From Stagnihabitans lacustris (GTDB lineage: Bacteria > Pseudomonadota > Alphaproteobacteria > Rhodobacterales > Rhodobacteraceae): a stretch of 64,000 nucleotides of DNA. Where the stretch lies: the NCBI RefSeq assembly GCF_025950525.1, contig NZ_JAPDGS010000001.1:929681-993680 (forward strand). The letters are read 5' to 3'. This document shows positions 39,704 to 59,468 of this stretch, one piece after another. The position numbers and the translations under genes were made by a program. The number at the start of each line of letters is the position of its first letter. Position 1 is the stretch's first letter. The notes under the pieces are model-generated. The model was given only the letters and a program-made list of their open reading frames with translations, ran no database searches and was not told the origin of the DNA.

Positions 39704-41016
39704 GCGAGGACATCCCCCTGTCCGAACGCCTGACAGCGCCGCGCGCCCTGAACGTCCTGCCGCCCCCATCGCTAGAGCGGATGGAGCGCACGGTCCGCGC
39801 GATCCTCGACCGTTTCGACCGTCCGAAGAAGGGGATCGAACAGGACGCCGAGAAGCTTTTTGCCGACTTGGCTCGCCGTATCCGCGAGGATGATTGGCAC
39901 AAGGTTCCAATGAACCATGTGGTTCGGGTAGCGGACCTCTTGTTCTCCCAGCGTTTCCGGGATCGTCTGGACTGGGCCCCCCTGCGCACCTTCCTCCTGG
40001 ACGAGGTCCGCGCTTCGACCAAACACGGGTTCCTGAACCCGATGCTGCGGATTTACCTCGACAGTTTCGTGCCGGGGGCGACACACAGCCGGGCCTTGGC
40101 GGCAGCCTTGATGATCGCCAGACCCGTCTTGCAACAGGGCCGGTGGGGCCGCCTGATCGGCTCCTTGCCGGATCTGTTCAATTCCGACACCGCTGCCAGA
40201 GACCTTGCCGCCCGCATGATCACCATGGCCGAGCCCTGGGAGGGCCTTCGTGAGCTGGGCCTGCGCCAACCCCATGGCCCGGGGCTGATGGACGCCGCAC
40301 ATCTGGAATATCTGAAGCTCCTGGGCCCGCGCCTGAACGAGCGTCTGATGATCGACACGCTTTTGAGCTGGCTGAAGCCTGCGGGCCAACCTGCCCGTGC
40401 CGTGGGGTCTGGTGAAGCCATCATGGCCCTCCTGCGCCCCTGGATGCAAAAGACGCCCCCAAAGGACTTGCAAGCCCATCTGATCGACCAGATTGCCGAT
40501 CTATACGGCCATCCCAAGGTGAACCGGCAAGCCGCCTGGAACCAGGTGGACCCCGCTATCGAAGCGGTCTTCTTGCGCTGGATCACCGGGGCCGACATCC
40601 GGTTTCTCTTCAAGACCCTCGCCGAGGTCGAGCGCAACCACATGTGGGCCGACCGCGAGGATTTCTGGTGGACGCTATACGAACAGGGCCGGATCAAAGA
40701 GGTTTGGATTGCCTTCAATGAAGCCGGATACCGGGCTGCAGTTGCCAAACTTCCTGAAGGGGGACGCAATGGTGTCAAACGTTTTGGGAGACAGATTGGC
40801 GAGAGGGACAAATCTCTATTGATCATGGACGTCGGTGGCAAGATCATTGTTGAGGGAACTTTCAACTTCAAAGTGCATGTCTTCGAAAAATCGGCATTGA
40901 AGACACCGAGGCTTTATGAATCAAGGTATGATGTTTCCGATATTCGGAACCTACCGGGTTCGGAAACCAAAATGCATCATGGCGACTGGCAATCTTGGGT
41001 GAGGCATCGGATATGA
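39700..41016 (+). CDS. zorC: Zorya defence protein ZorC (EH-signature domain)
   Basis: The 438 residues are alpha-helical and match the EH_Signature family: VERNHMWADREDFW carries the eponymous Glu311 and His314, followed by WIAFNEAGYR and a C-terminal segment with WQSWVR. ZorC is a soluble effector or DNA-binding component of type I Zorya. It overlaps zorB and zorD by four bases each, so all four genes are translationally coupled. Confidence 0.93.
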   Translation: MSEDIPLSERLTAPRALNVLPPPSLERMERTVRAILDRFDRPKKGIEQDAEKLFADLARRIREDDWHKVPMNHVVRVADLLFSQRFRDRLDWAPLRTFLLDEVRASTKHGFLNPMLRIYLDSFVPGATHSRALAAALMIARPVLQQGRWGRLIGSLPDLFNSDTAARDLAARMITMAEPWEGLRELGLRQPHGPGLMDAAHLEYLKLLGPRLNERLMIDTLLSWLKPAGQPARAVGSGEAIMALLRPWMQKTPPKDLQAHLIDQIADLYGHPKVNRQAAWNQVDPAIEAVFLRWITGADIRFLFKTLAEVERNHMWADREDFWWTLYEQGRIKEVWIAFNEAGYRAAVAKLPEGGRNGVKRFGRQIGERDKSLLIMDVGGKIIVEGTFNFKVHVFEKSALKTPRLYESRYDVSDIRNLPGSETKMHHGDWQSWVRHRI

Positions 41017-44000
41017 TCTTCACCTTCGCCCTCACCGCCACCTCCGTCACCCTCCGCCCCGAGGCGCCGAGCGGCCTTCTGTCTCGCCTGATCGCCCGTC
41101 GCGCCCCCGACCTTGACCACCTGCCCGAAGCCGAGCGGCCCCTGGCGGTGGCAATGGCAGACCTGCGCAGCCTTGCGGAAGAAACCGGCGAATCGTTGGA
41201 GATCGCCGATCACATCACCCTCTCCCACCGCCTTGCCGCCCGAGTGGATGCCGAAACCGCCAGAGCCATCGGACTGCCCGGACTGACCGACCTGACGCTT
41301 TCCACAGATGCCGAGGGGCTGGTCGGCACCCCGGGCTTCCGCCTCTCCGCCATCTGGAGCCGGAGCGGCCAGCGTCGCACCCCCGCGCGCACCGGTGCCT
41401 TCTTGCAGACCGATCGTGGATGGCAGCGCCTGCCGCTCTGGATGCTCGAGGCCGTCGAGATTGCCGAAGGCCACAAGGGCCAGGGCCGCGATGATGCGGA
41501 TTGGGAGGCGCTGGCCCGCTTTCGTCAGGCCATCGACCCCGCCGCCGGAACGGTCGCCCGCAACAAGGTCGGCCAGCTGGTGATGACCGGCTTCCTGTCC
41601 GGCCTTCAGGTCTCGCTCGCCGACCGTTTCGCCATTTCGCCCGATGCCGAGGGCGAGACTTTCGAGGTCGTCCCCTTCTCGGGCCGCAGCCTGGCAGACG
41701 CGCCCGAGGGTGAAATCACTGAGACCATGGGCAGCCTCATCGACGATGACCTCAGCCTCTTCCGCAACCGTCTTGCGCAACGCGGCGCCTTGAACGCCTA
41801 CCGCCTTGGCTCCGGCCGCTATCTGGTCGTGGACCGGGGGGCCGCACCGGCGCTGAAGGTCATGGCCGAGATGCAGCGGGCCGCCCCAGAGGTCCGCCGC
41901 GCCTTCATCCGCAACCCGCGCGCCCGGATCACCTTGGCGGTAGAGGCGGCGTTGGATGCCTCGGGTGCCCTGGACAACCTGAGCGACGCTGGACGTGAAG
42001 AGGCGGTTGAGAAGGCCGCCGGGCCGATCCTGATCGAGACTGTCGAATATCAGGCCTTCTCGGGCCGGGTTACCGGTGTGGGCGTCTATGAGGGCAATCC
42101 GCTGGGGACCATCTCTTCCAGCGGTATGACCTGGCTGCCCGAGATATTCAACGCGACCCTGGCCGGGGCGCTGCGCTCCGCACCGCTGGACCGCCTTGAG
42201 GCGCTGCGGGATCAAATCCTGCGCGCGATGACCGAGGGACAGCAAACGGTTGCCTTCGACACTCTGCAGGTGCCCGCCACTCCTGCAAGCCAACAAGAGG
42301 TCGAGGCGCTGATTTCGGTGAAGACCCCCTTGTCGGATGACCCCGCCGACGCAGCCGAGGACGACGACCAAACCGCCCCGATCATCCTGCAAACCGCCGA
42401 CAATTTCGAGACCCTCGCCTGGAGGCCCGAGCGCGGACCGCGAGTGACGACCCTGTCAACTCAAGTTCTTGGCTCGATCCGCACGGCGATGAAACCGCAT
42501 CAAAAGGAAAGCCTGACTTGGCAGGTCGAGGCCTGGAAAGCGGGCCTGCCGGGCGTTCTGAACGCCGACGAACAGGGCCTTGGGAAGACCTTGCAGACCA
42601 TCGCCTTCCTCGTCTGGCTGAACGAGCACATGAAGACGACGCCCCAGGGGCGCGGCCCGATCCTTGTGGTTGCGCCCACCTCACTTCTGGAAAACTGGGA
42701 AAACGAGGTCTCCCGCCATGTCGAGATGCCGGGCCTTGGCCACCTGATCCGGCTTTACGGCAGCGCGACCCGGGCGCGCAAGGCCGCTGGGACCTCGGGG
42801 TTCGACACTGATCAGGGCCTGCCAACGCTGGATTTCACCGACCTGGAAAAGGCAATACAGACCGGGGCGGGTCATCTGACCTGGGTTCTGACCACCTACA
42901 CGACTCTGACCAACTACCAGCACAGCCTGCAGAAAATCCGCTTCGCCGCCGTGGTCTTCGACGAGATACAGGCGGTGAAGAACCCCGGGTCTTTGCGGGC
43001 CTTCGCAGCGCGCTCGGTCAATGCTGAGTTCCGCATCGGCCTGACCGGAACGCCCATCGAGAACGAGACCTCGGACCTTTGGGCCATCATGGACCAATTG
43101 GCCCCAGGCGCGCTTGGCACGCTGCGCGATTTCCGGTCGCGCTATGGTGAGCCAGACGAGCGGCTGATGGCCGAACTGCATGGCCGCGTCTTCCATCCGC
43201 AGGGCGACTTGCCGCCCCTTTCGCTGCGCCGTCTGAAGGATCAGGTCGCCCGCGATCTGCCGCCCAAGACCCGCTACCTTCACCCCCGCCTGATGCCCGC
43301 TGTCCAGTCTGCCGCCTATGAGGTAGCGCGGCGCAAACTGGCCGAGGGCGGGATGGGGGCGGTCCTCAAGATGCTGCACCACATTCGCAGCGTCTCGGTC
43401 CATCCGGGATTTGACGGACTGCAAGAGGGCGACTTCATCAGTGCGTCGGCCCGCTTGCAGGCGGTCTTCGACATCCTGCGCCGCATCCGCGCCAGGAATG
43501 AACGGGCCTTGGTCTTCATCGAGCACCTGAAGGTGCAGCATCGCTTTGCCGAGGCAATCCGGCGGGAATTCAATCTGTCCAAGGTCGACATCATCAACGG
43601 CGAGACCCCGATCCCCAAGCGGCAAGCCATCGTCGACCGCTTTCAGCGCCATCTGGACAAGGACGGAGGCTTTGACTTGTTGATCCTCGGGCCCCGTGCG
43701 GCGGGGACTGGACTGACCCTGACGGCGGCAACCCATGTGATCCATCTTTCGCGTTGGTGGAACCCTGCGGTCGAGGAGCAATGCAACGACCGCGTTCACC
43801 GTCTTGGCCAGACCAGGCCTGTGACCGTTCATGTGCCCCTGGCCATCCATCCCGACTATGGCGCGCAAAGCTTTGACCTGGTGCTGCAAAGCCTGATGAA
43901 CCGCAAACGGCGCCTCGCCCAGCAAACCCTTTGGCCGATGGGCGACGATCAGGGCGATGTGGCCGCCCTGCAAGCCATGTTGGGACAAGAGGCCGCAAGG

Positions 44001-44102
44001 CCGAAGGGCGATGTGCTGACCGACAGCATGGCGACCCTGTTCCTGCGCGACGGGCTGCCCATGGGAAAGCCCGACGCGGAAGGTGCCTGGGTGATCGGTT
44101 AG
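41013..44102 (+). CDS. zorD: Zorya defence protein ZorD (SNF2-type helicase/nuclease)
   Basis: The 1029 residues have a 500-residue N-terminal family-specific region and a SNF2 ATPase: motif I DEQGLGKT, motif II DEIQ in VVFDEIQAVKNP, motif III LTGTPIEN, and motifs V-VI ending in DRVHRLGQTRPV. ZorD is the DNA effector of type I Zorya and defines this locus as type I rather than type II (zorE). I start at ATG 41013, which overlaps the zorC stop; a TTG six codons upstream is less likely. It converges on the AIPR gene with overlapping stop codons. Confidence 0.94.
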   Translation: MIFTFALTATSVTLRPEAPSGLLSRLIARRAPDLDHLPEAERPLAVAMADLRSLAEETGESLEIADHITLSHRLAARVDAETARAIGLPGLTDLTLSTDAEGLVGTPGFRLSAIWSRSGQRRTPARTGAFLQTDRGWQRLPLWMLEAVEIAEGHKGQGRDDADWEALARFRQAIDPAAGTVARNKVGQLVMTGFLSGLQVSLADRFAISPDAEGETFEVVPFSGRSLADAPEGEITETMGSLIDDDLSLFRNRLAQRGALNAYRLGSGRYLVVDRGAAPALKVMAEMQRAAPEVRRAFIRNPRARITLAVEAALDASGALDNLSDAGREEAVEKAAGPILIETVEYQAFSGRVTGVGVYEGNPLGTISSSGMTWLPEIFNATLAGALRSAPLDRLEALRDQILRAMTEGQQTVAFDTLQVPATPASQQEVEALISVKTPLSDDPADAAEDDDQTAPIILQTADNFETLAWRPERGPRVTTLSTQVLGSIRTAMKPHQKESLTWQVEAWKAGLPGVLNADEQGLGKTLQTIAFLVWLNEHMKTTPQGRGPILVVAPTSLLENWENEVSRHVEMPGLGHLIRLYGSATRARKAAGTSGFDTDQGLPTLDFTDLEKAIQTGAGHLTWVLTTYTTLTNYQHSLQKIRFAAVVFDEIQAVKNPGSLRAFAARSVNAEFRIGLTGTPIENETSDLWAIMDQLAPGALGTLRDFRSRYGEPDERLMAELHGRVFHPQGDLPPLSLRRLKDQVARDLPPKTRYLHPRLMPAVQSAAYEVARRKLAEGGMGAVLKMLHHIRSVSVHPGFDGLQEGDFISASARLQAVFDILRRIRARNERALVFIEHLKVQHRFAEAIRREFNLSKVDIINGETPIPKRQAIVDRFQRHLDKDGGFDLLILGPRAAGTGLTLTAATHVIHLSRWWNPAVEEQCNDRVHRLGQTRPVTVHVPLAIHPDYGAQSFDLVLQSLMNRKRRLAQQTLWPMGDDQGDVAALQAMLGQEAARPKGDVLTDSMATLFLRDGLPMGKPDAEGAWVIG

Positions 44103-45892
44103 CGCAGCTCCGGGATGGGCTCGGATGGTGTGGGGAAGGTCAGACCGTTGACCCGAGGCCAGAAAGATGCGCCCTTCGCGACCTCCGAGAATTGCCGACC
44201 ACCGCCGTAGTCCACGAAGGCTTGGTTCACCTTGGCCGCCCAATCCCAAAGCAGGTTGCGGAAGGGGGCCGAGATGCCCTGCCTTTGCCAGACCTGCTCG
44301 AAATCGACCCGGCCCTCGTAGCGCGCCGCGAAGGCCGCAATCGTGTAGGTCGTCACGCTGACCATGCCCTGGGTGAAGATGTGTTTGGCATCCCGGCGTG
44401 AGATCATTTCCTGCAAGGCCTTGAAGATGATCACCTTGGCGATCATCTGCCGATACCATTTGGCATCCAGCGGCGTGGGCACATTGGAAGTGCCCTCCTC
44501 CAGAGCCAGAACGAATTGCTCGTAGTTTTTCTCGTTGCCCAGGGCGACCTGAACCGGCTTGACCGCCCAAGCCTCATGGACACGCGCGATGTCATTCTTG
44601 GTCAGCCGCCGTTTGGTCGGGATGGCATCCTTCAGCTTCTTTTGCTGGGCCGGCGTGCCCGCCCGCAACAGCAGGACCTGATAGGCCCCCCCCGCACGCT
44701 CATAGAACCAGCGGCCGACACCATCGGGGCACCAGGTCTCATTCGCCAGTTTCTCTAGCTGCCGATGGAAGGGCTTGTTGGACGAAAGGTCCGACGTCTT
44801 CACGGCATTCTGGCTGTTGGCGAAATTGGAGATCTTGGAGATCAGATCCTCGCGCCTGTCGGTGTCTTCGCCCTTCAGGATGATGATCTTGGCCGGAACC
44901 ATGACATGCGAGAGGTCCAGCGCCTTGTTCTGGCGGCTGGAGAAATAGATCGACGAGGTCGTTTGCCCGCCATTGACGATCTGCAACCCCTTGATGAAGG
45001 AAAGCCCCAGGCCAAGTTCGGTCTGGCTGAAGTCCGCTCGGTCGCAGACGATCACCAGGCCGTTGTTATAGGCGAGGAAATGACCGGGCTCCTTCACCAG
45101 GGTCTCGGCAATGCCCTTGTTCACCTTCTTGCCCGCGCCAAGGAAAGTGCGGATGTTGGCCTCCAGAAGCTGCGCGTTGAACTTTTCGTAAAGCGCCCGC
45201 AGGACCTCGGCGGGGATGGCGGTCAGGGCATAGTCGTAGTCGGCCGTCGGGTCAGGCACATAAACGCAGGGCAGGGCGCGGCCGATGGATTGCTCGAAGC
45301 TGATCGCGATCTCGTCGCGCGGCTTGCCTTCCGAATGGCGGAAGACACGTTCGATATCCATGGCCTCGATGCCGATCAGGCGACCCTGAACCTCTTGGCG
45401 CGGGAACTGCTTCGTCTTGGTTTGCCCATCGGTGACGACGAAAATCCGCACCTGGTCAAGGTCGTTCCAGCGTTTTTGGATCAACTGAACAAGGTCAAAA
45501 ATCTCGGAGGACCTTTCGACCATGCCGCCGAGCTTGCCATTGGCCGAGTTCAGCAGAAAATTCACCGCTTGCTTGGCTGTGTTGACGATCGGCGTATCCA
45601 CGAGCGGCGTGATCTCTTCGGTCCCGCAATAATGCGTCACGAAGATGTCCAGCACGGTTTCATCGACCGATAGCGCATGTCCTGTGATGCGCAGGTTTGC
45701 ATTGCCCACCTTGCCGGTCCAATGACAGACGGTCGGCGTGTCACAAATGCCGGAAGCATTGACATGCTCCATCACCATTTCGGCGAAGACCAGTTCCTCG
45801 GTCGGGAAAGCCCCTTCGTCGGAGTTCACCCTTTCATTGACCTCGGCCAGAACGGTGGCGCGAAAGCTGCGGTGAAACTCTGCAATATCCAT
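44099..45892 (-). CDS. AIPR-family protein of the Z1 defence operon
   Basis: The 597 residues match the abortive-infection phage-resistance (AIPR) family. The core is LAYNNGLVIVCDRAD followed by LQIVNGGQTTSSIYF and the KIIILKGED, FANSQNAVKTSDL blocks. The family occurs with Z1 ATPases and methyltransferases. Its biochemical activity is not known to me; a nuclease or nucleotide-binding role has been suggested. I start at ATG 45892, one base after the upstream stop; a longer frame would overlap the previous gene by over 100 bases. Last gene of the operon. Confidence 0.88.
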   Translation of the reverse strand: MDIAEFHRSFRATVLAEVNERVNSDEGAFPTEELVFAEMVMEHVNASGICDTPTVCHWTGKVGNANLRITGHALSVDETVLDIFVTHYCGTEEITPLVDTPIVNTAKQAVNFLLNSANGKLGGMVERSSEIFDLVQLIQKRWNDLDQVRIFVVTDGQTKTKQFPRQEVQGRLIGIEAMDIERVFRHSEGKPRDEIAISFEQSIGRALPCVYVPDPTADYDYALTAIPAEVLRALYEKFNAQLLEANIRTFLGAGKKVNKGIAETLVKEPGHFLAYNNGLVIVCDRADFSQTELGLGLSFIKGLQIVNGGQTTSSIYFSSRQNKALDLSHVMVPAKIIILKGEDTDRREDLISKISNFANSQNAVKTSDLSSNKPFHRQLEKLANETWCPDGVGRWFYERAGGAYQVLLLRAGTPAQQKKLKDAIPTKRRLTKNDIARVHEAWAVKPVQVALGNEKNYEQFVLALEEGTSNVPTPLDAKWYRQMIAKVIIFKALQEMISRRDAKHIFTQGMVSVTTYTIAAFAARYEGRVDFEQVWQRQGISAPFRNLLWDWAAKVNQAFVDYGGGRQFSEVAKGASFWPRVNGLTFPTPSEPIPELR

Positions 45893-45893
45893 G

Positions 45894-46886
45894 TCAACAA
45901 CCCAATTCGGTGAAAACGACCTCGGGGTCAGATTCGCCCACAAGGTCAGAGATATCAAGCGCATAGCTTGCACTTCTGATGGCCCGTGGTAGATCGGCAC
46001 GCCTCAGCCGCGGGAAGTCGGCGTCAATGCGCAGGCTGCGTGCATCGGCCAGCCGAAGGCCGCGCAGGTAATGCGGCGCGTGGTCGTCAAGGTAACCGGC
46101 GCAGATCAGCAAGCCCTCGAAACTGCGGCCAACACCCGCATCGGTGAAAGCCTGACGCAATCGGGCCACGATGGCCACCAGCGTATCGGCCCCCTCTTCG
46201 GGCTCGAACCGCAGGGCGCGCAGGAACTGCGGGTCGCGCTCGCCGTCCAGTTGTTCGACGCTGTTGATGCGGGCGATGAAGGCGGCTTTGGATGCCGTGC
46301 TTTTCACCTCCATTGACCCCGAGCCAAGATGGAAATCCTGCGCACCCCGCATCGGCCCGACCCAGGCACGCAGCGCAGTTGCACGCGCAAGGCCCCTCGA
46401 CAGCAGGGTCTCCAGGGTCACCAACTCGCCCATCAAGCCGATCTGAGCCTCGGGCGACAGCCTGCGACGGCGGGCAAGGAAGCTTTGCCAATCATCGATC
46501 CGCTCGATCAGGGTCTCGATGACCTCGGCAGGCCCCCCTGTCTCGACCTGCATGCAACGCAAAAGGTCCAGGCAGATGACAGCGAAGATGTCCTCTGACC
46601 CTTCGTCGCGTCTCATGAGAGCGATTGCCCGCTGGTCTTGGGCCAGAGGGTAGGGGTCAAGGAAGGCGATGTCGAAGCCGCGCCCCTCAGGCAGGCCTTG
46701 ACCCGAGACGCCCGCGCTGGCCGGAAAGCTGATGATCAGCGCCTCATGACTGCCCGGAAAGCGTCGGCCGGCGTCGATGCCCACCGCCCCGATTCGCGCC
46801 AGGGGCAAGAGCCGCCAGGCGGAACCATCCGGCTTGGCCAAGGCGCGCCAAGTGGCGATCAGCCCCTCTTCAGTCCAGCCCGTCAT
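45894..46886 (-). CDS. PD-(D/E)XK nuclease-like protein (DUF4420 type)
   Basis: 330 residues with a probable nuclease core: Glu154 in GLMGELVTLE, Asp184 in AQDFHLG and Glu193-x-Lys195 in MEVKSTAS. This is the layout of the PD-(D/E)XK motif proteins linked to Z1 operons. The C-terminal 130 residues are a helical domain. It overlaps the Z1 gene by 17 bases. Likely the DNA-cutting subunit of the system (inference). Confidence 0.87.
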   Translation of the reverse strand: MTGWTEEGLIATWRALAKPDGSAWRLLPLARIGAVGIDAGRRFPGSHEALIISFPASAGVSGQGLPEGRGFDIAFLDPYPLAQDQRAIALMRRDEGSEDIFAVICLDLLRCMQVETGGPAEVIETLIERIDDWQSFLARRRRLSPEAQIGLMGELVTLETLLSRGLARATALRAWVGPMRGAQDFHLGSGSMEVKSTASKAAFIARINSVEQLDGERDPQFLRALRFEPEEGADTLVAIVARLRQAFTDAGVGRSFEGLLICAGYLDDHAPHYLRGLRLADARSLRIDADFPRLRRADLPRAIRSASYALDISDLVGESDPEVVFTELGC

Positions 46887-49764
46887 TCACAGCCCCCCAG
46901 TCTTTCCCTTCGCTCACAGTGCTCCACAACACACTGTTCGCCATGTATTTTTCATTGCTGACCCGCGTGTCGGATTTCGAACCGGGGAAGTTGATCGCCC
47001 AGCCCAGAACCGGCACATCCGGGTCCAAGGTCTCCATCTCGGATTTGTCCTTTGCGGGGTCGAGCAGATAGAGCATCAAAAGCCCGCGCTGACACCGATG
47101 CGGAACCCCGGCTTCTGGCACCCCTTCGCCCAAAACCTTGCGGATCGCGGGCCCGCGCGGTTCTTTCGGGACCTCGTCGCCTTGATTGCGTTCCTTGTCG
47201 TTCCGCCAGGTGGCCTGGGTGATGGCAAGGGCCGCGTTCCACTCGGCCTCTGTCAGGCCGATGGTCTGATCGCGTGGCGAGGTCAGGGTCTTGATCGAAT
47301 AGCGCTTGTCGTCCGCGATGTTGCGCTTCCGTTTCAGCATGACGGTGTCCTGGCCGCCAATCTTGACCAGGCGATCCTCCTCAGCCTTTTCCTTGCCGAT
47401 CAGCGCAACCGTCCACTCGGTCAGCTCTTGCGTTTTGGTCATCACGTCGATGAAGTCGGCAATCAGCGGGCTCATGATACGGAAACTGGAGGGATGGGTC
47501 TTGTAGCTGCGCAGAAAGGCCGTCACCTCGGCCGCTGGAACGCCCTCCCAGAACCGGCCCGACCAGGTTTGGTTTGGCAGGAAGGTCAGTTGTTCGTTCA
47601 GCTCGCGGCCCACCCCCAAGGACGAGACAAAGCGATCACCCGCCAGGAAATTCGCCTTCACATCGGCCAGGCCAAACACGATGGTCTGCAACAGATTGCC
47701 CGCGAAGGTCAGTTCCATGGGCCTGGCGTTGCGCATCTTTGACCGCGAGGTCACCGTCAACACCGAATGCGACCGCACCCGCAGGCCGAATTCCTTGGGC
47801 GTTGCTCCTGCCGCCTCCATGTTGTCGAACTCTTCGCGCAGCTCTTCACTGGCGTCGGCGATATGGCCGAACCACTCGATCATCTCGTTGGAGGTGTAAA
47901 GCCTGCATACGTCCAGATAGCCGTCGCGATAACCGAACCAGCGGCCCATCTGCATCAACGTGTCATACATCTTGGCGCAGCGCAGGAAATAGCTGGTGCA
48001 GAGCCCCTCCAGCGTCAGACCCCGCGCCAGCTTGTCGCCGCCCACCGCGATGACCTTCAGCCCGGTGCCCTCGTGATCGACGTAATCCAACGCATCCTTG
48101 GCCGAGCCGTTGATCTCCTTGACCCTGATGTCGTCAAGGATCTCGGGAAGGACAGCACGGACCTGATCCCAGGAGAAATCCGCCAGCACCTCGTCCTTGG
48201 CCAAAGTGTCGCGGATTTTCGCCATGCCGGGGCGGAAGGTCGTCTCGTATTCTCTGGCCATCAGGGCCTCGGTCTCCGCCGGGTCGATGCCCCGAACCAA
48301 GCGGCCTTTCAGAAGGCGGACATAATCCTCGACCTGGACGGTCACGGCATTCTGGACGGCCACAAAGCGGGTCACATGGATCAGCATCGAGCAATGCTTG
48401 CCCCCCTGTCCCCGCAGATGCCGGATGGCACAGGCGTAAAGAAATGACCGGATCGCCTCTTGCGCCGTGTCGGGGAGGCGGGATTCACCCTGCCACGCAG
48501 GCCTGTGATGCGACTTGTGTTTGGGTGGCATCCATTGGGTGAAATCGTCGTCGGCCAGGGGCCGGGTCAGTGGCAGATCGCCTACTGAGGCCGAAGCCGA
48601 GCCAAAGACCCGCCCCGGCCCGATATAGTTAGAGGGCGCCGCCAGGTTGGTGATGAAGGCCGCCGGGAAAAGGTCGGGGCCGTGTTCGGCCGTGGTGCCC
48701 TTGTCATGGATGAAGATGTTGGCAAAGGGCGTGGCCGTATAGCCCACATAGGCCTTGCGGGTGAACTGGTGCAGGATCGCCCGGATCAAACGGTTGATCG
48801 TGGTGGGCTTGTGTTCCTCATCCGGCACGCCGTTTTCATCGACGACATCCTCGCCGGTATCGACCGAGCCGTGATCGGCCTCGTCGTCGATCACCAGCAG
48901 AGGCAGGTTGGTCACCAGCTTGCGGCCCGTCAGCGGATCGACCTCATTGGCCACCCGGCTGCGGATCCATAGCAGGAGACGCTCCAGAACCGTCTTGTTC
49001 TTCTTGACCACAAAGAGCCAGGGCCGCTGTTCGGGCGACACGCCCAGTGAGGCAATCTGACCCTTGGTGAAGTCGCCCCTCTCGCCCCGCGTCGTGCCGT
49101 AGTTCGGGTTGATCGAGTGATCCATGTCGATCTCGCCCACGCCCACGCGGGGCAGGGTGTCGACATTGGCGATGGTCGCAAATCCCAGGAACCCCTCGTC
49201 CAGGCGGATCTGGGTCTGTGAACGCAGGTTGTTGTGAAGCCCTGCAAGGACGATGATGATCTTGTAACCCGCGTCGGCTGCCTTGCAGATCAGCCCGGTG
49301 TAATTGCCGGTCTTGCCCGATTGCACATGGCCCACGACCAGCCCACGTCGGTCCCAGACACCCGTCCGCAGCGGGTCTTCCAACTGCTGCAAGACATCAT
49401 CGGTCGCTTGGTCCAGAGCATCCAGCGCCTTCCAGGGCAGCTTGGCATCCATGTATTCGCTGTAGCGCCGCCAATAGCGCCAGTCCTGCTTGCGCGCCGC
49501 ATTCAGCCAGGCGATGTGGTCCTCGCTGCTGGACAGGGTCGCATTGCGCCCCACGCTCTGGCTTGACCGCCGGATCAGCTCGTCGATCAGCGCGTCGCGA
49601 TCGACCAGGGCGAATTCGTCCGGCAACATCAGCTCGGCCTTGTTCAGTTCGGCCGAGATCAGATCGGCCGTCACCAGCCCCCCGGATTTGGCCGAGGCGC
49701 GGGTCACCAGCATCTGGGTCATCTTCAGGATGTCGTCGAAGGCCTTTTGGGCGGCAATGCTCAT
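46870..49764 (-). CDS. Z1-domain ATPase of the defence operon
   Basis: 964 residues. A superfamily 2-like ATPase core has Walker A GHVQSGKT at 145-152, a Walker B-type VIDDEADH at 293-298 and GYTATPFAN soon after. The Z1 domain follows, in which GGDKLARGLTLEGL and MGRWFGYRDGYLD are characteristic. Z1 proteins are predicted helicase/translocase motors of methylation-linked defence. The start is ATG 49764, three bases after the ATPase stop. Confidence 0.93.
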   Translation of the reverse strand: MSIAAQKAFDDILKMTQMLVTRASAKSGGLVTADLISAELNKAELMLPDEFALVDRDALIDELIRRSSQSVGRNATLSSSEDHIAWLNAARKQDWRYWRRYSEYMDAKLPWKALDALDQATDDVLQQLEDPLRTGVWDRRGLVVGHVQSGKTGNYTGLICKAADAGYKIIIVLAGLHNNLRSQTQIRLDEGFLGFATIANVDTLPRVGVGEIDMDHSINPNYGTTRGERGDFTKGQIASLGVSPEQRPWLFVVKKNKTVLERLLLWIRSRVANEVDPLTGRKLVTNLPLLVIDDEADHGSVDTGEDVVDENGVPDEEHKPTTINRLIRAILHQFTRKAYVGYTATPFANIFIHDKGTTAEHGPDLFPAAFITNLAAPSNYIGPGRVFGSASASVGDLPLTRPLADDDFTQWMPPKHKSHHRPAWQGESRLPDTAQEAIRSFLYACAIRHLRGQGGKHCSMLIHVTRFVAVQNAVTVQVEDYVRLLKGRLVRGIDPAETEALMAREYETTFRPGMAKIRDTLAKDEVLADFSWDQVRAVLPEILDDIRVKEINGSAKDALDYVDHEGTGLKVIAVGGDKLARGLTLEGLCTSYFLRCAKMYDTLMQMGRWFGYRDGYLDVCRLYTSNEMIEWFGHIADASEELREEFDNMEAAGATPKEFGLRVRSHSVLTVTSRSKMRNARPMELTFAGNLLQTIVFGLADVKANFLAGDRFVSSLGVGRELNEQLTFLPNQTWSGRFWEGVPAAEVTAFLRSYKTHPSSFRIMSPLIADFIDVMTKTQELTEWTVALIGKEKAEEDRLVKIGGQDTVMLKRKRNIADDKRYSIKTLTSPRDQTIGLTEAEWNAALAITQATWRNDKERNQGDEVPKEPRGPAIRKVLGEGVPEAGVPHRCQRGLLMLYLLDPAKDKSEMETLDPDVPVLGWAINFPGSKSDTRVSNEKYMANSVLWSTVSEGKDWGAVNDGLD

Positions 49765-49767
49765 GGG

Positions 49768-51258
49768 TCAGTCTTTCAAAGCGAGTTGGCCAACAAGGGC
49801 GGGGAAAGCGTCAAAGGGTTTGGTTTTGGCCAAGCGGGATCGCGCCTCGTCCTCGGACAGGCCACGGTGTCGGACAAGGACGTCGAACATGGTCTCCAGC
49901 GTCTCAAGCACTTCCTTGTCTGGCGCTGCCGAGAAGCCGTTGCGGGGGATTTCCTTGTCTTCGGCGGTGTCCAGCCAGATACGCTGGACGGGAACGGTCT
50001 CTTCGATCAGTCGCAACAGCGACAGGATCTCGTCGCGCATGGGCCCGGCGCGGTCCAGGATAGAGGCCACGAGGTCGTGGTCGCGGGCAATCCGATAGGT
50101 CGTCCCTTGCGCCAAGGCGCGGGCGTTCCAGACATCGGGCAGGGCGCCCGACGTCGATGGCGCCGAGGCCGCCCGCCCGCCGCGAAAGGCAAAGACATCG
50201 CGTGCCTTCTCGCGAGTCTCGCGGGCCAGCCGCGCCAGTTGTTCGCGCAGACGGACCGGAGGCGCGGCAGTTGATTTCAGGATGTCGATCTTCCATTCGG
50301 CATCGGCCGTGTTGGGGATATCCAGCCTTATACGGGCCAGCCGATGCGGCTCGTCCTTGGTCCAGGCCTTGCCGCGTTCTCCCAACCGCAGCCAGGTGCC
50401 GGGCAGCAAGAGCCTTTCGTTGCGGTAGACGTAGAAACCCTGCTGCGAGGTCCAACCCGCTGGTCCGCCCGCTTTGTCATAGACTTCGGGCTTGGGGAAG
50501 AAATCGCGGTGGGGCAGAACATGGCACTGCACCAGGACGTCAGGCGCTCCGGCCAGACGGTATTCGTCGCTTTCCCAGCGTTTGGAAGCATGGCCCAAGA
50601 GGAAAGGGTCCCAGGGCTGCACCTTGCGGCCGTTCAACAGGATCGTCAGGCGCGGCCCGATCAGCCGGTGGAAAGTCATGGCCAGGTGGCTGTCGACCTG
50701 CTCGACCAGATCGGCAAGGTCGGTCGGCTTGAAGCCTTGGGTCACGATGCGGTCCAGGGTCTCCCAGAGGACAATGGTTCCCTGCTCCATGGTGTCCAGC
50801 GCGGCGATGCGCGGCTCCGAGCCAGCCTCGGGGCCTTCGAACAGCGGCCATTGTCCGGCCTCGCCCTCATGGATGCGGTCAAGGTCCCAGCGCAGGCAGG
50901 CAATTGCCCCGCCCGCCTTGCGCGTGGCCACCGTCAGTCGCCGCGCCTGCGAGAAGGTCGCGGTCTTCAGCCCCATGCCAAAGCGGCCAAGGTCATCTTT
51001 CGACCGACTGTCGCGCGGGTCCTTTGCCCCAAGGCGCAGAGCAGATTCAAGTTCCGGGTCATCCATGCCCAGCCCGTCATCGGTGATGCGCACGAAGGAT
51101 TGCGCGTCAGCCCATTCAAAGCGGATATCGACCAGGCTGGCCCCTGCGGAGATCGAATTGTCGACGATATCGGCGATGGCGGTGGAGGTCGTGTAGCCAA
51201 GCCCCCGCAGGGATTCGAGCATGGCAGAGGCATTCGGAGGCGTATTTCTGACGGCCAT
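49768..51258 (-). CDS. GHKL (MutL/Hsp90-like) ATPase of the defence operon
   Basis: 496 residues with an N-terminal GHKL fold: N box AIADIVDNSISAG, G1 box DDGLGMD and G2 box LGRFGMGLKTATFS. In the N box the usual catalytic Glu is Asp. A transducer-like domain and a C-terminal helical region follow. It is probably an ATP-driven clamp, as in MutL or MORC. I start at ATG 51258, two bases after the sigma-like gene stop. Confidence 0.88.
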   Translation of the reverse strand: MAVRNTPPNASAMLESLRGLGYTTSTAIADIVDNSISAGASLVDIRFEWADAQSFVRITDDGLGMDDPELESALRLGAKDPRDSRSKDDLGRFGMGLKTATFSQARRLTVATRKAGGAIACLRWDLDRIHEGEAGQWPLFEGPEAGSEPRIAALDTMEQGTIVLWETLDRIVTQGFKPTDLADLVEQVDSHLAMTFHRLIGPRLTILLNGRKVQPWDPFLLGHASKRWESDEYRLAGAPDVLVQCHVLPHRDFFPKPEVYDKAGGPAGWTSQQGFYVYRNERLLLPGTWLRLGERGKAWTKDEPHRLARIRLDIPNTADAEWKIDILKSTAAPPVRLREQLARLARETREKARDVFAFRGGRAASAPSTSGALPDVWNARALAQGTTYRIARDHDLVASILDRAGPMRDEILSLLRLIEETVPVQRIWLDTAEDKEIPRNGFSAAPDKEVLETLETMFDVLVRHRGLSEDEARSRLAKTKPFDAFPALVGQLALKD

Positions 51259-51260
51259 TT

Positions 51261-53672
51261 TTACAGGTATTTCCGAATTTTCCCAAGGCGGGAGGGTTGG
51301 GCCAGACAATCCATGGCCTTGGCTTCGATCTGGCGGATGCGTTCGCGCGTGACTCCCATGGACTGACCCAGCTCCTCGAGCGTCATTTCGTCCTGATCGT
51401 CAAAACCGCAGCGACCTTTCAGGATCGCAAGCCAGCGCGGGTCCAATTGGTCCATGGCCCGTGAGACGATCAGGTTACGTTCCTGCGCAAGGACTGTCTC
51501 GTAGCCAAGTTCATCGCATGCGAAATCCTGTGCATCTTGGCCTGGTTCCTCTGGTTTCCGCAGCGATCTGTTCAAAATGTGCAGCAGGTCGCCGTTGAAG
51601 CCGGTTCTTGAGGACAAGGCTTGCAGCGTCACCGGATAGCCCTTCAGCTCCAGTTCTTCGCGGACTGCATCCAAGAGGGCCAACTGCTCTTGCCTGTGAA
51701 CCGGAATGCGCACCAGCGCGGACTCGTCGCGCCGGGCACGCGTGATGTGTTGCCTCATCCAGAAAGCGGAATAGACCATGAATCGGATGCCACGCGCTGC
51801 ATCGAACCGCACCAAGGCGCGGCGAAGGCCCATCCAGGCATTCTGGAATACGTCCTCGACCTCTTCGCCTTCCTGTGCCTCACGAGAGGCTTGGAGCCTT
51901 ACCCAAGGCAGATGCAGCCCAAGGAAAGCATGGATCGCATCGCGCTGCGCCCGCACGGCTTGCACCACAGGCAAAGCCTTGGCGCGATCGACGGACGAGA
52001 TGGCTTCGGCCAGGCCCTCGACGATTTCGGGCAGAAGCTCCAGGCTTCCTATGGCCTTGGCCATGCGGTCTTGCGTCCAGGTGTCGGGCACAACTCCGGC
52101 CGCGATATCGTCATGCAGGATTTCAAGGTCGTCGAGGTGGTTGCGGAAGGTCTCCACCGCGCCGGGGTCCGCCTCGCGGAACTCGATGCGGGTGACTTCA
52201 AAGGCTTCGATTGCCCCGGCCAGGAGACCGCGCCCCAGGGAGATGATGGCGCTGCGCGACACATCGTCGGCGGCGATGGCGGCTTCGGCCGCGGCGGTGC
52301 AGCGCCGGATTTCGGCGAGCAGCCGGCGTTCTTCATGGGCCGACAGCGCAAAGGCCTGACGCCCCACAAGAACCGGCGTCCGGTTGCACAGGGCCATCAG
52401 CCCGTCGGTCATCTCGTCGATATCCAGATCGGCCAAGGGGTCGAAAGAACCGTTCTCGGCCTCAAAGCCGCAATCCTCGAGGAAGCGGGAAACATTGGCG
52501 GCAAGGTCATCGTCCCAGCCGCCCTGGCAGAGGTCGATCAGGTCAAGGATCAGTTCGGGGCTGGCCTGGCCCCGGGCAATGACTTCGCCAAGCCATGCGC
52601 GGCAATCGGCCTCCTCCAGCGAGACCGGGACCAGTTCCGAGGGACGGGAGGTCTTCCGGCTGCGGCGCCCGCTGGTTCTGACCTCAAGATAGGCGGCAGG
52701 CTGGGCCACATGATGTGAGGGGGCGGGGGCCGTCCGGTGTTCGGGCTGGCTCGGGTCGTCAAGCAGGCGCAGGGCCTGAACCCGTGGCTGGGGGACGATC
52801 CCCTCGCCCGATATCTCGAACGTGCCCAAATCGCCCAAGTCCAGGTCGGGCACGGGCGCCGCGTCCTCACCCTGGATGACGACGCGCCCGATTTGCCAGT
52901 CGAAAACGGGCCGCGCCTCGCCGAAGCCGCCTTGAGTGTGAAAGGTTTCAGCGTCGTCACTGTCGACCACGCCAAAACTGAAGTCGAAATCCTCCAGCGG
53001 GGGCAGGTCGATCACCTGCGGCTTTGGCGGCTCTGGCCGGTCAAAGCGCAAGGCCTTGCCGCGCAGCATTTCCGCAATGGCCACCTGGCCCGCAGCCTCG
53101 GCCACGTCGGCAGCAGTCTTGCCATCCTTGTTGGCGGTGTCGGTCGCAATCCCGGCGGCAAAGAGCTTTTCGCAGGCCAGAAGCGCCCCGCGCTTGGCCA
53201 CGATGTGCAAAAGTGTGTTGCCGCGCGCATCAAGCGCATCCCGGCGACCCGTTGCAATGAGCGTCTCTACCGTCTTGGTGGGGACCGTCAGGACCCGGGC
53301 GATCTCGGCGCTGGTCAGGGGCGGAACCATCTCCGACCGAGGCTTCTGCGCTTCGACCTGCGCCAGATGCTCGGCAATGACCTTGGCCAACTGCGGATGG
53401 CCCGACAACCGGGCGAGGGCCGCAGCATCAAGCCCACCTGCATCGCGGATGCCCGCATTGGCACCCCCTTCCAGCAAGATCCGGCAGACCTGTGATTTCC
53501 CCTTCTGGGCCGCGCGGTGCAGGGCCGTCCGTCCCGACACATCGCGCAGGTCGATCATGGCCGGCGTCGCAACCAGTCGCCTGGCGCGCTCTTCGTCGTC
53601 AAGGAGCGGAGCGATATGGATTGTAGCTCCCGCGCCGCGTCTTATGGTCTCGCTGGTTTTCAAAAGGGACAT
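51261..53672 (-). CDS. Ankyrin-repeat protein with a primary-sigma-like C-terminus
   Basis: 803 residues. Two ankyrin-like blocks lie near the N-terminus (GRTALHRAAQKGKSQVC at about 48, GNTLLHIVAKRGALLACEKL at about 150). An acidic linker and a helical middle containing a sigma region 1.2-like segment (LSAHEERRLLAEIRR) follow. Residues 605-659 look like sigma region 2, with RFDAARGIRFMVYSAFWMRQ and then HITRARR. Region 4 (743-803) has TLEELGQSMGVTRERIRQIEAKA and ends PSRLGKIRKYL like RpoD. ATG 53672 is preferred; a GTG at 53693 is possible. It lies 114 bases after the methyltransferase and two bases before the GHKL ATPase. Whether it equals a described Mza subunit I cannot check. Confidence 0.85.
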   Translation of the reverse strand: MSLLKTSETIRRGAGATIHIAPLLDDEERARRLVATPAMIDLRDVSGRTALHRAAQKGKSQVCRILLEGGANAGIRDAGGLDAAALARLSGHPQLAKVIAEHLAQVEAQKPRSEMVPPLTSAEIARVLTVPTKTVETLIATGRRDALDARGNTLLHIVAKRGALLACEKLFAAGIATDTANKDGKTAADVAEAAGQVAIAEMLRGKALRFDRPEPPKPQVIDLPPLEDFDFSFGVVDSDDAETFHTQGGFGEARPVFDWQIGRVVIQGEDAAPVPDLDLGDLGTFEISGEGIVPQPRVQALRLLDDPSQPEHRTAPAPSHHVAQPAAYLEVRTSGRRSRKTSRPSELVPVSLEEADCRAWLGEVIARGQASPELILDLIDLCQGGWDDDLAANVSRFLEDCGFEAENGSFDPLADLDIDEMTDGLMALCNRTPVLVGRQAFALSAHEERRLLAEIRRCTAAAEAAIAADDVSRSAIISLGRGLLAGAIEAFEVTRIEFREADPGAVETFRNHLDDLEILHDDIAAGVVPDTWTQDRMAKAIGSLELLPEIVEGLAEAISSVDRAKALPVVQAVRAQRDAIHAFLGLHLPWVRLQASREAQEGEEVEDVFQNAWMGLRRALVRFDAARGIRFMVYSAFWMRQHITRARRDESALVRIPVHRQEQLALLDAVREELELKGYPVTLQALSSRTGFNGDLLHILNRSLRKPEEPGQDAQDFACDELGYETVLAQERNLIVSRAMDQLDPRWLAILKGRCGFDDQDEMTLEELGQSMGVTRERIRQIEAKAMDCLAQPSRLGKIRKYL

Positions 53673-53786
53673 CACTGAAACAATTCCACCCACCGCAACT
53701 CAACCAGCGATAGTGCGCTATTTCAACCCTCTACCGGCGAAATCGTGGCGAAATCCTGGTGATTCCCTATATGGCAGGTGAGGGCG

Positions 53787-55292
53787 TCAGATCTTGTCAT
53801 AGAGCGGAAGCAGCGCTTCGGCGATTTGGCGGGCCAGCCAAGGGGGGACGGCATTGCCGACCTGGACATATTGCTGGGTCCGGTTGCCCAGAAACATGTA
53901 ATCATCGGGGAAAGTTTGCAGTCGGGCAGCCTCACGCACGGTCAGGCTGCGACATTGCGCGGGATCGGGATGGATGAAGTAGTGGCCGTCCTTCGCGATA
54001 TGGCTGGTGACTGTGGTCGAGGGCTGGTCGGCCAATTGCACACGAAAGCGGTCCGCGAACTTGCCCGTGGTCCAGCTCTTGTGATTGGGGGCCAAGGCTT
54101 GCGGGAAATCCGCGGCCTTGGGGCTATAGCCTTCGGCCTTGGCGAAGGCAGCCGCAAAAAGATACCGGGCAAGGTCCTCCACCATGTGGCCGCGGGTGTC
54201 GTGACCGGGCAGGGCGCCTTTGGCCATGCCTCCCAGCCATTCGGCCAATTTCGTGGGCAGGTTACTGGTCGTATCCTTGGAGGCGTGCTTTGAGCGTCCC
54301 TTGGCCGCGATTTCATAAAGACGCGCCGAGGTTCGGTTCAGGGCGCTGCGAAAGGCTGAGGGGTTCGACAGACATTCGGCCCGAGCCGCGCTGCTCACGG
54401 TTTCAACGGCCAGAGCAACGGCGTCGATCCAGGCCTCGGCCTTGTCAGCCTTGCTGAGCCCGCTGCGCAGTTCCGGCATGGCACCGATCGTGTCCTCGAC
54501 GGTGACCCTTGCATTCACCTTCGGCAAGAAGGGTCCGGCTGACAGGCCAAGATCGTCACGCAGACCGACCACGATCACTCGATGCCGCGCCTGAGGGACG
54601 CCATGTTCCTCGGCCCGCAGGATGAAATCCTTGGCCGCCGGACGCCCCAGCAGATCACCCCCCGAGGTCAGGGCACAGAGTCGGTAACCCGCTTGTTCAA
54701 GGTCCTCCATCACCGCGCCAAAGACCGGACCGCCGCCAACTGCCGAAGACAGGATGCCCTTCACGTTCTCCATCACGAACATCGTGGGCTTCAACCGGTT
54801 GAGGACCTTGCAGTATTCCTTGTAAAGGAAGTGCCGGTGATCCTCTTCAGCCACATAGCCCTTTGTCCCTGCATTGCGCGCACGACCCACCAGGGAATAG
54901 GCCTGACACGGAGGCCCACCGATCAGAAGCGTCTTTGTCACCCCCGAAGCCTCCAGCGCGGCAATCCGCGCCTCGATAAGGTCCCAGGTCTCGGGCTTTC
55001 CCAGTTCCAGACATTGCGCTTCGTGCTCGGCCGCCTGCCATTCGGCCGGATAGAGCCTGGCCCAGTCGGGCTGATCGGCCCCATGCAGGAAGTTCAGGTA
55101 TTCCTGTGGGTATCGGTCGAATTGCCGCAGGAAGGCGCGCAGGCGAAGGGTCCGATGGGCCGAGGCCTCTTTCTCGATTGAGACCGCAATGCGAAAGGCC
55201 CGGGACCCGTCCTTGCGTTTGACCGAAGCAAAGCCTTCGCCAAGACCGCCGGGGCCGGAAAACAAATCGACGATGGCAATGTGCTCTGGCAT
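53787..55292 (-). CDS. C5-cytosine DNA methyltransferase
   Basis: 501 residues with m5C methylase motifs in order: I DLFSGPGGLGEGF (9-21), IV with catalytic Cys129 in GGPPCQAYS, VI FVMENVKG, VIII QARHRVIVVG and X VQVGNAVPP. A target-recognition region of about 170 residues lies between VIII and X; its sequence specificity cannot be read. ATG 55292 follows GGAAGAAC. It is divergent from vsr across about 60 bases. It would protect host DNA from, or mark it for, the downstream operon. Confidence 0.95.
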   Translation of the reverse strand: MPEHIAIVDLFSGPGGLGEGFASVKRKDGSRAFRIAVSIEKEASAHRTLRLRAFLRQFDRYPQEYLNFLHGADQPDWARLYPAEWQAAEHEAQCLELGKPETWDLIEARIAALEASGVTKTLLIGGPPCQAYSLVGRARNAGTKGYVAEEDHRHFLYKEYCKVLNRLKPTMFVMENVKGILSSAVGGGPVFGAVMEDLEQAGYRLCALTSGGDLLGRPAAKDFILRAEEHGVPQARHRVIVVGLRDDLGLSAGPFLPKVNARVTVEDTIGAMPELRSGLSKADKAEAWIDAVALAVETVSSAARAECLSNPSAFRSALNRTSARLYEIAAKGRSKHASKDTTSNLPTKLAEWLGGMAKGALPGHDTRGHMVEDLARYLFAAAFAKAEGYSPKAADFPQALAPNHKSWTTGKFADRFRVQLADQPSTTVTSHIAKDGHYFIHPDPAQCRSLTVREAARLQTFPDDYMFLGNRTQQYVQVGNAVPPWLARQIAEALLPLYDKI

Positions 55293-55352
55293 GGTTCTTC
55301 CGTTCTCTGCCGCCCCTTCTTCCAGGTTCTGGCCCAAAGCGCAAGGCTTGCC

Positions 55353-55790
55353 ATGGATGTCGTCGATAAAGCCACCCGCTCTCGCATGATGGCCGGGATC
55401 AGGGCGAAGGATACCAAGCCCGAAGTCATGGTCCGCCGCGCCCTACATGCCCAAGGTCTCCGCTTTCGCCTGCACCGCCGAGACCTGCCCGGAACACCAG
55501 ACATCGTCTTGCCGCGGCACAAGGTCGCCATTTTCGTCCACGGCTGTTTCTGGCACCATCATCAAGGATGCCAGAATGCGAAACTCCCGACGACCCGGCC
55601 GGAATTCTGGGCGACGAAATTGCAGGGCAATCGGGACAGGGATGCCGCGCGGATAGGCGAATTGGTGGCGCTTGGCTGGAGGGTGGCGATCATATGGGAA
55701 TGTGCCACGCGAAGAGACATGTCAGCGACGGCAGGCTCGGCCATGGATTGGATCAGAAACGGAACGGGGTTGACATTGAAGATCGAATAG
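55353..55790 (+). CDS. vsr: Very short patch repair (Vsr) endonuclease
   Basis: 145 residues. MDVVDKATRSRMMAGIRAKD and TKPEVMVRRALHAQGLRFRL are diagnostic. Catalytic Asp50 lies in PGTPDIVLP, and the zinc/active-site stretch is FVHGCFWHHHQGC. Vsr nicks 5' of T:G mismatches that arise when 5-methylcytosine deaminates, so it normally accompanies m5C methylases such as the one opposite. The start is ATG 55353, downstream of a longer in-frame stretch that overlaps the methyltransferase start. Confidence 0.93.
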   Translation: MDVVDKATRSRMMAGIRAKDTKPEVMVRRALHAQGLRFRLHRRDLPGTPDIVLPRHKVAIFVHGCFWHHHQGCQNAKLPTTRPEFWATKLQGNRDRDAARIGELVALGWRVAIIWECATRRDMSATAGSAMDWIRNGTGLTLKIE

Positions 55791-57837: not shown

Positions 57838-59136
57838 TCAAGGGCGGTTGATCACCAGCGCGTCGCGTTCAGGGATGTCGAAGTCCTCTGCAAGGGCCAT
57901 GCGCAGGGCGCGCAGGCCCTCTGCCATCGCATCGCCGAGGGGCTTCAGCTTTGGCCCCTGAAGCTCTGCAACCAGGACCGCAGCGCGCTTGGCCATCCCG
58001 ACCAGCTCTCGGTGCAGCGCGGGAGAGAGGCGCGGAAATCCAAGATCCAGCACCAAGCCTTTCAAATCATCGGGCGTCATGTCATCGGCCATTTGCGCGC
58101 CCCCATGGTCGAAGGAAAGCTGGTGCGTCACCGTCGGGTCTATCAATGTGGGGAAGATGTCATAGGCCGGGGCCAGTTCGGGTCGGGCTCCACGATAGAT
58201 CAACGCATGGTTCTTGGCGTGGTTGTCGGTGTTCCCAAGTATGACGTTGGCCATGGTAAGCTGCAGGAAGGCCGCCCGCGACGGGCCTGGGCTCTGGGTC
58301 TGGGCGAGGACACCTGCGAGGGCTCGGGCCGAAAAGCAGTGATCCGCGCTGCCGTTCCTCTGATACTTCAGCGACGGAGCCAGGCCGAGGGCCTGCGCGA
58401 AATCCTCCTGGTGCAAGCGGCGCAGCAGCATCCCATCGGTCACCCGGTCGAAGCGGGTGATCAGGAGACTTTGAAGATCACCCTCGCCCAGCACCTCGGT
58501 CACTTGGACTGGATGCCGGATCAAGGAGGCCATGATTTGCGTCGCGCGGTGTTCAAGGCCGACATCCGAATGGGCCCCTCGGCGCGGGACTTTCAGGATA
58601 TGGGTGGTCGGCACGTTCAGGCCCGGTTTGGGCAGGGCGAAGCGCCCATCCGGCAGTCGGGTCAGCGCGATCTTGCCCTGCACCCCCGCGACCGGCGAGG
58701 GATCGGGCGTTGCATCTGGCAATCTGCGGTGGTCGCGCAGCGAAGTGATGATCCCCGTCAGGTGCTCGACCGAAAGAGCGTCGTAATCCCGGGTCAGGTC
58801 CCCCGGGGTCTTGGCAGGCCCTTCGCCCAAGGGCACGCAAGAGATGGCCCCCGGGCAATCGCGCCCCATGTGGAACAAGAGACCCACGATGTCGTCGAGG
58901 TCGAGGCCATGACGTTCGGCCACCTGGTCGCGCAGTCGGTTCTCGAAAAGCAGATTGGCAAAGAAGCCCCGGGTTGCCGCATCCCCAAAGGGGGCTTCGC
59001 GCAGGGGAAGCGAGAGCGAGATCGGATGGGGCAGGTCGTCGCTCAGGTAGCGGAAGCTCAGCACGCCATCGTCGCGCCGGGTCAGACGTCCGATGGGCGC
59101 AAGCTTGCCCTCGAGCTGCACATCGAGTTCGAGCAT
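57838..59136 (-). CDS. hipA: HipA-type serine/threonine kinase toxin
   Basis: 432 residues. The N-terminal HipA couple domain is followed by GKIALTRL and a kinase-like core with the catalytic loop GNTDNHAKNHAL and the metal-binding PAYDIFPT. HipA of E. coli phosphorylates glutamyl-tRNA synthetase and induces dormancy; the target here is unknown. ATG 59136 has GGAGGA upstream and lies two bases after the hipB stop. It stabilises the island or adds abortive protection. Confidence 0.92.
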   Translation of the reverse strand: MLELDVQLEGKLAPIGRLTRRDDGVLSFRYLSDDLPHPISLSLPLREAPFGDAATRGFFANLLFENRLRDQVAERHGLDLDDIVGLLFHMGRDCPGAISCVPLGEGPAKTPGDLTRDYDALSVEHLTGIITSLRDHRRLPDATPDPSPVAGVQGKIALTRLPDGRFALPKPGLNVPTTHILKVPRRGAHSDVGLEHRATQIMASLIRHPVQVTEVLGEGDLQSLLITRFDRVTDGMLLRRLHQEDFAQALGLAPSLKYQRNGSADHCFSARALAGVLAQTQSPGPSRAAFLQLTMANVILGNTDNHAKNHALIYRGARPELAPAYDIFPTLIDPTVTHQLSFDHGGAQMADDMTPDDLKGLVLDLGFPRLSPALHRELVGMAKRAAVLVAELQGPKLKPLGDAMAEGLRALRMALAEDFDIPERDALVINRP

Positions 59137-59138
59137 GA

Positions 59139-59351
59139 TCAGTCCTCCGCCGAGAGGCGAAGGCCAAGGTCGCGGCAGATTTGCAAGACGAGACCGACAT
59201 GGGCGGTGGCCTTGCCAGCCTCGATTGCGCCCACGGTGGGCACCGAGACCCCGCTCTGCGCCGCGACATCGGCTTGGCGTAGGCCAAGCGCCTTGCGGCG
59301 CGTGCGGATCAGGGCGCCGAGGACGAGCATATCGGGGATGGGTTGCGGCAT
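59139..59351 (-). CDS. hipB: HipB-type XRE antitoxin
   Basis: 70 residues, nearly all one XRE helix-turn-helix (TRRKALGLRQADVAAQSGVS, then VPTVGAIEAGKA). HipB neutralises HipA and represses its own operon. It is coupled to hipA, and three AACGATCGTT-like sites lie directly upstream. Confidence 0.9.
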   Translation of the reverse strand: MPQPIPDMLVLGALIRTRRKALGLRQADVAAQSGVSVPTVGAIEAGKATAHVGLVLQICRDLGLRLSAED

Positions 59352-59357
59352 GGTTTA

Positions 59358-59468
59358 AACGATCGTTGTGTTTTGTGCCAGAATAGAGATCCTTGGTGAA
59401 AATAGCAACGATCATTGAAATTCAGGACTCAGCGAGGCAGTCTCGATGTTGATGGGTGCGATCGTTGA
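59358..59468. promoter_or_regulatory. Three HipB operator-like palindromes about 50 bp apart
   Basis: AACGATCGTT at 59358-59367 is a perfect palindrome. CAACGATCATTG at 59406-59417 and GCGATCGTTG at 59458-59467 share the core. Centres are 49 and 50 bases apart. The third lies in the end of the preceding gene. Position and symmetry fit cooperative HipB autorepression. Confidence 0.65.

Follow-up and report, generated by a model that had tools for sequence, protein, structure and literature searches.

The window, a stretch of 64,000 nucleotides of Stagnihabitans lacustris, contains between positions 44099 and 55790 a locus of the known Mza kind, accompanied by a 5-methylcytosine (m5C) DNA methylase and by the mismatch endonuclease Vsr. 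Judged by its sequence, this is a real and divergent Mza locus, with the five core genes and their companions and no gene that appears broken. The cluster likely defends against phages, and probably does so as a methylation-aware restriction-type system in which the sigma factor part of MzaA would find the target. Among the relatives, five nonorthologous classes of m5C methylase are, by sequence comparison, exchanged beside a conserved Mza core, which is a new detail. The analysis further adds one replaced repair gene, the assignment of MzaB to MORC, the RpoD-type −35 residues of MzaA, and GcrA fusions in three relatives.

Composition of the Mza locus

Five coupled genes of the minus strand match the PADLOC models MzaA to MzaE, all contiguous and in order, which upholds the earlier note in equating a GHKL-Z1-DUF4420-AIPR core with Mza. 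The first of them, mzaA (51261..53672; open reading frame, ORF, from 53693, likely start 53672), encodes ankyrin repeats and RpoD-like sigma-70 regions 2–4 (PF12796, PF04542, PF04545; PADLOC 2.2e-36, the best stretch being C-terminal, residues 575–807). It is followed by mzaB (49768..51258; ORF from 51309, likely start 51258), coding for a GHKL ATPase with a MORC motif (PF13589, 9.6e-28; PADLOC 1.8e-170), by the gene matching MzaC (46870..49764; PF10593, 4.4e-81; PADLOC E = 0, 1052 bits), by mzaD (45894..46886), coding for a DUF4420 PD-(D/E)XK protein (PF14390, 4.5e-64; PADLOC 6.4e-56), and by mzaE (44099..45892; ORF from 46000, likely start 45892), coding for an AIPR protein (PF10592, 5.8e-85; PF22879, 8.3e-41; PADLOC 5.1e-153). 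On the same strand, the methylase gene (53787..55292; ORF from 55337, likely start 55292) matches PF00145 at 7.8e-46 and TIGR00675 (dcm) above cut-off. A gap of 60 nucleotides (55293..55352) separates its start from that of the divergent, plus-strand vsr (55353..55790; ORF from 55281), a T:G mismatch endonuclease gene (PF03852, 3.1e-33; TIGR00632 above cut-off). The compact locus of six minus-strand genes and a divergent vsr that had been described earlier is thus confirmed for every gene, and the Pfam and defence-model profiles assign the ORFs to the families expected (PF10592, PF14390, PF10593, PF13589).

Coverage of the Mza profiles is nearly full-length except for MzaA. All five proteins miss the NCBIfam equivalog cut-offs (score/cut-off: MzaE 653/1050, MzaD 264/420, MzaC 1135/1500, MzaB 636/850, and MzaA 205/800, the last at 204.7 bits); hence, on these scores, the locus is a divergent Mza branch and not the equivalog named by NCBI. 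Unlike the window, the five-gene models of PADLOC and NCBIfam do not include a methylase and a Vsr. The earlier interpretation was borne out for the Mza core and its gene company, but mostly not for a larger new system: the "ankyrin-sigma" protein counted as an extra member is MzaA itself, and restriction-modification neighbourhoods of this sort, with methylase and Vsr, are already described in the available parts of Iyer 2008 (PMC2292703) and Miller 2022 (PMC9523054).

The window and its relatives share with the MORC/paraMORC neighbourhoods of Iyer 2008, as far as the available text of that paper goes, the MORC motif, a helicase with C-terminal DThhQXuRhFG, an E-D-ExK restriction endonuclease–fold partner, and a linked m5C methylase and Vsr; they differ in MzaA, since that text names neither a sigma nor an ankyrin protein. 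For the Type II putative system of Miller 2022, the part available gives identities to mzaBCDE of about 20% and reports mzaA from few systems only, in contrast to the 52 of 55 loci with MzaA found here. Pin25611FIII (PMC5608340, in its available part) is from Prevotella intermedia, of a different phylum than the window. The best PADLOC match of the window methylase is the DISARM class II methylase DrmMII (296 bits), and no DISARM core gene is found among 20 scanned proteins beyond weak DrmD cross-hits of a Zorya helicase. A 2026 BREX paper with the term "sigma factor" (PMC12839542) was set aside, as its available text deals with a sigma-like helix-turn-helix in BrxL, and AIPR and Mza do not occur in it.

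Companion methylases and repair genes

Relatives were collected with an MzaC-alignment scan of one genome per species, and the best 80 of the 515 confirmed relatives were taken (identity down to 49%), with up to 10 kb per side. Gene tallies use the 55 loci with flanks of 5 kb or more on each side, or the 43 with 9 kb, the remainder ending too near the block. Among the 55 loci, MzaB–E are present in 55, MzaA in 52, the m5C methylase in 51, Vsr in 50, and all seven genes in 46; among the 43, the methylase is present in 41, Vsr in 39, and all seven genes in 36. The count of 51 comprises 49 methylases found by the first profile and those of L070 and L075, which belong to another class. The nine incomplete loci lack Vsr (L043, L054), methylase and Vsr (L059, L085, L098), MzaA (L061, L073, L078), or the methylase (L091). 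The co-occurrence of the seven genes in other genomes, on which the earlier note had staked its reading, is confirmed, and in essence it had been described before.

When all 80 loci are considered, 65 have an m5C methylase, which is of the window's class in 55 and of four other classes in ten (L039/L041/L050; L052/L057/L070/L075; L054; L092/L100); no methylase was seen in 15, of which 11 have a flank shorter than 5 kb. Identity within classes is about 56–99%, whereas BLAST alignments between classes are mostly partial, at about 25–34%; against the window enzyme, short segments reach 43% (89 residues) and 54% (83 residues). Seven of the ten methylases of other classes lie directly beside Mza genes or Vsr. 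For example, L045 and L050 have identities of 0.83 in MzaB, 0.90 in MzaC, 0.76 in MzaD, and 0.86 in MzaE, but of 0.27 in the methylase, and a similar contrast is found between L029 and L039 (0.81–0.90 in the Mza core, 0.28 in the methylase). In most loci a methylase is found with the core, yet one class can stand in for another while the core stays similar. The most economical reading is a core whose recognition is not tied to a single fixed site under the protection of a single cognate methylase. Alternatively, all the classes might share one target.

Candidate specificity partners of the methylase among the Mza proteins were sought by partial Mantel tests, whose permutations ignore the tree, in sets of 19, 58, and 61 loci left after removal of near-duplicates and incomplete sets. 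All were rejected as not robust. MzaE gives 0.37 (p 0.01) in the 19 close loci and 0.035 (p 0.35) in 58; MzaD (0.16, p 0.006) and MzaB (0.13, p 0.038) are significant only in the 58 loci; MzaA, given MzaB, MzaC, and MzaD, gives 0.42 (p 0.01, 18 loci) and 0.12 (p 0.03, 51 loci). A high value of the MzaE segment 1–40 is taken for an artefact of over-long ORFs. Between parts of MzaA and MzaE there are weak hints (ankyrin 0.38 and sigma region 2 0.55, p 0.002 each; region 4 −0.17).

Repair of deaminated m5C appears to accompany the methylase, as would be expected if the methylase were active on the host genome. Vsr is present in 49 of the 51 loci with a methylase, its divergence tracks that of the methylase (partial r 0.51 and 0.38), and its residues D74 and H92 are invariant (62/62); the methylase motifs PCQ and ENV are present. 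In L054, one of these two loci with a methylase but no Vsr, a gene for an HhH-GPD glycosylase overlaps the methylase gene; the nearest match of its product is 1kea, an enzyme of G-T mismatch repair, followed by MutY. In the gene listing of L043, the other such locus, no glycosylase-type gene was noticed.

Core proteins and proposed mode of action

The Pfam tally of MzaA covers 60 of 69 sequences (68 loci and the window); sigma regions 2 and 4 are found in all 60, and ankyrin repeats in 54. Both regions of the window protein carry promoter-reading residues, and all 81 of the MzaA-type proteins compared keep the four residues with which RpoD reads the −35 element. The window MzaA aligns to residues 338–611 of E. 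coli RpoD, and the nearest PDB sequences are RpoD/SigA, RpoS being weaker. Five loci lack MzaA though there is room for it, the methylase lying directly upstream of mzaB (L061, L073, and L078, plus L060 and L076 outside the 55); their hosts are all Pseudomonas or Stutzerimonas. MzaA is also absent from L046, where 3.3 kb precede mzaB. In some relatives, MzaA is fused to GcrA-type helix-turn-helix modules, by pattern one copy in L032 and three each in L034 and L045 (Pfam GcrA 3.3e-43 in three stretches for L034). The C-terminal tails of MzaA in L083, L088, L091, L095, L103, and L104 resemble one another and end in GF...PGKGY-x-K or something close to it.

The motifs of the other core proteins are strongly conserved. 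The MORC motif GhXhhpXXRhl is found in 76 of 76 MzaB proteins, including that of the window (residues 291–301 of the long ORF), and MzaC has GHVQSGKT and DDE as well as the C-terminal DThhQXuRhFG in 81 of 81. The residues E154, D184, E193, and K195 of MzaD, an E-D-ExK site as read from the sequence alone, are invariant in 79 of 79. The first domain of MzaE aligns best with PD-(D/E)XK nucleases (VIA-align, moderate Z), and no HEPN fold is among the matches listed. For this type of protein, Makarova 2012 reportedly names HEPN. The second domain of MzaE is a tentative candidate for the ParB/DUF262 superfamily. A second, longer AIPR protein is encoded downstream of mzaE in L059 (15631–18336, 901 aa) and L065 (15491–18322, 943 aa) according to Pfam; in L062 and L066 it was recognised solely from its similarity to MzaE.

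A methylation-aware restriction-type defence, with MzaA as the putative target finder, remains the likely reading of this set of proteins; no mechanism of Mza was found in the open-access PubMed Central literature, among the matches listed. Several observations weigh against it. The window proteins score below every NCBIfam cut-off for Mza, and the relatives were picked by likeness to the window MzaC, with shared descent uncorrected. The companions are not constant: neither methylase nor Vsr is present in three of the 55 loci (L085, and L059 and L098 with at least 9 kb of flank), L091 has Vsr only, and in three of the ten loci with other methylase classes (L054, L092, L100) the methylase stands off from the Mza genes by 1.3 to 2.3 kb or more, which weakens the link there. 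No Mza protein follows the methylase robustly. The window MzaA departs from RpoD at core-contact positions (N618, W620), and the absence of MzaA in three of the 55 loci makes the sigma part dispensable somewhere. MzaE has no Foldseek match at E ≤ 0.001, and its canonical catalytic lysine is not evident. Finally, the five mza genes alone reportedly gave protection in E. coli (Gao 2020), so a linked methylase may not be essential; Dcm and Vsr are native to many laboratory E. coli.

The methylase–Vsr pair could also be an independent neighbour merely travelling with Mza. The side and orientation of the methylase do vary (61 counted: downstream minus 34, upstream plus 17, downstream plus 8, upstream minus 2) and both genes are missing in L059, L085, and L098, but this explanation is improbable given a methylase in 51 of 55 loci, with 56 of 63 binned hits at most 1.5 kb away from the Mza block (37 up to 0.5 kb, 19 up to 1.5, six up to 3, one up to 5, none beyond), and given five methylase classes, which point to a functional need. 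Somewhat less doubtful, though still unlikely, is an abortive-infection mode for Mza, in which MzaE would serve as the toxin and unmarked DNA would not be cut. AIPR indeed stands for abortive infection phage resistance; the nuclease-like alignment of the first domain of MzaE, of moderate Z, the presence of MzaD as another protein with a canonical E-D-ExK site, and the methylase argue against it.

For MzaA, two other roles have to be considered. It might be a regulator only, a sigma factor that transcribes its own operon or a small number of host genes; mzaA is the first gene of the coupled run, and the −10- and −35-reading residues are largely kept in its product. Its DNA-reading residues, however, equal those of RpoD at most compared positions and should open no new promoter class; a consensus scan of 53600–55500 found no sigma-70 promoter, and upstream of mzaA no clear promoter block is seen in 11 close loci (3 of 14 gave no start), conservation being mostly like that of upstream coding sequence. 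This role is therefore unlikely, and rather less is to be said for a decoy or guard, in which the RpoD-like domains would be bait for phage anti-sigma proteins that seize sigma factors, their binding releasing the Mza effectors. Such a role agrees with the RpoD-like region 4 and its invariant −35-reading residues and with the ankyrin repeats, which suggest docking. The sigma-repressors reviewed in the available part of PMC7403470 are all phage-encoded but one and act on sigma4, and the available part of PMC10924106 counts mzaA among the genes of high mutation, under purifying selection overall but under positive selection in the sigma non-essential region. Yet invariant DNA-reading residues are needless in a pure protein-binding decoy, and the three loci without MzaA retain the other genes. 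A sigma factor with the promoter-reading residues of RpoD inside a presumed DNA-destroying system makes both the targeting of promoters or RNA polymerase and the sensing of phage anti-sigma proteins directly testable.

Genomic context

MzaC is found at E ≤ 1e-200 in 13 of 390 genomes of the window's order, its own included. None of 15 other genomes of the genus has an MzaC match at E ≤ 0.001, which suggests acquisition by transfer. MzaC relatives occur in two loci of viral contigs, in 32 plasmid records at 1e-20, none of them enterobacterial, and in five phage records; a tblastn search of plasmids with the whole MzaA gave 338 records, none covering 80% of the protein.

The mzaE gene is convergent with a complete plus-strand type I Zorya system (36570–44102; zorA from 36570, zorB from 38600, zorC from 39700, zorD 40995–44102), and overlaps it by four nucleotides. 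Next to Zorya is a plus-strand tyrosine integrase gene with Arm-DNA-bind_3 (35089–36450), and the Zorya-Mza stretch looks like a mobile island, whose other end is out of view because the window appears to end at the contig end. A search for an empty insertion site found, among the 15 other genomes of the genus, no counterpart of the gene to the left of the integrase, and the island boundary is thus a presumed one.

Other genes of the window include a gene-transfer-agent tail protein (27301–31185, plus strand; GTA_TIM, Phage-tail_3, Rcc01698_C) outside the presumed island, a HipA-like protein (57838–59415, minus), and an ORF (59984–61282, minus) in which the N-terminal domain of a resolvase is the sole domain. 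Among the relatives, a WYL-domain regulator is present in L059 (4814–5779, just upstream of mzaA) and L098 (1296–2273, about 4 kb away on the other strand), the full-flank loci without methylase and Vsr and the only two in which it was looked for. In L111, from a plasmid of Thalassospira marina, an AspBHI-type restriction endonuclease (14637–15806; RE_AspBHI_N and Mrr_cat) is encoded between mzaE and a cytosine methylase; the AspBHI family is modification-dependent, which makes it an odd neighbour of an m5C methylase.
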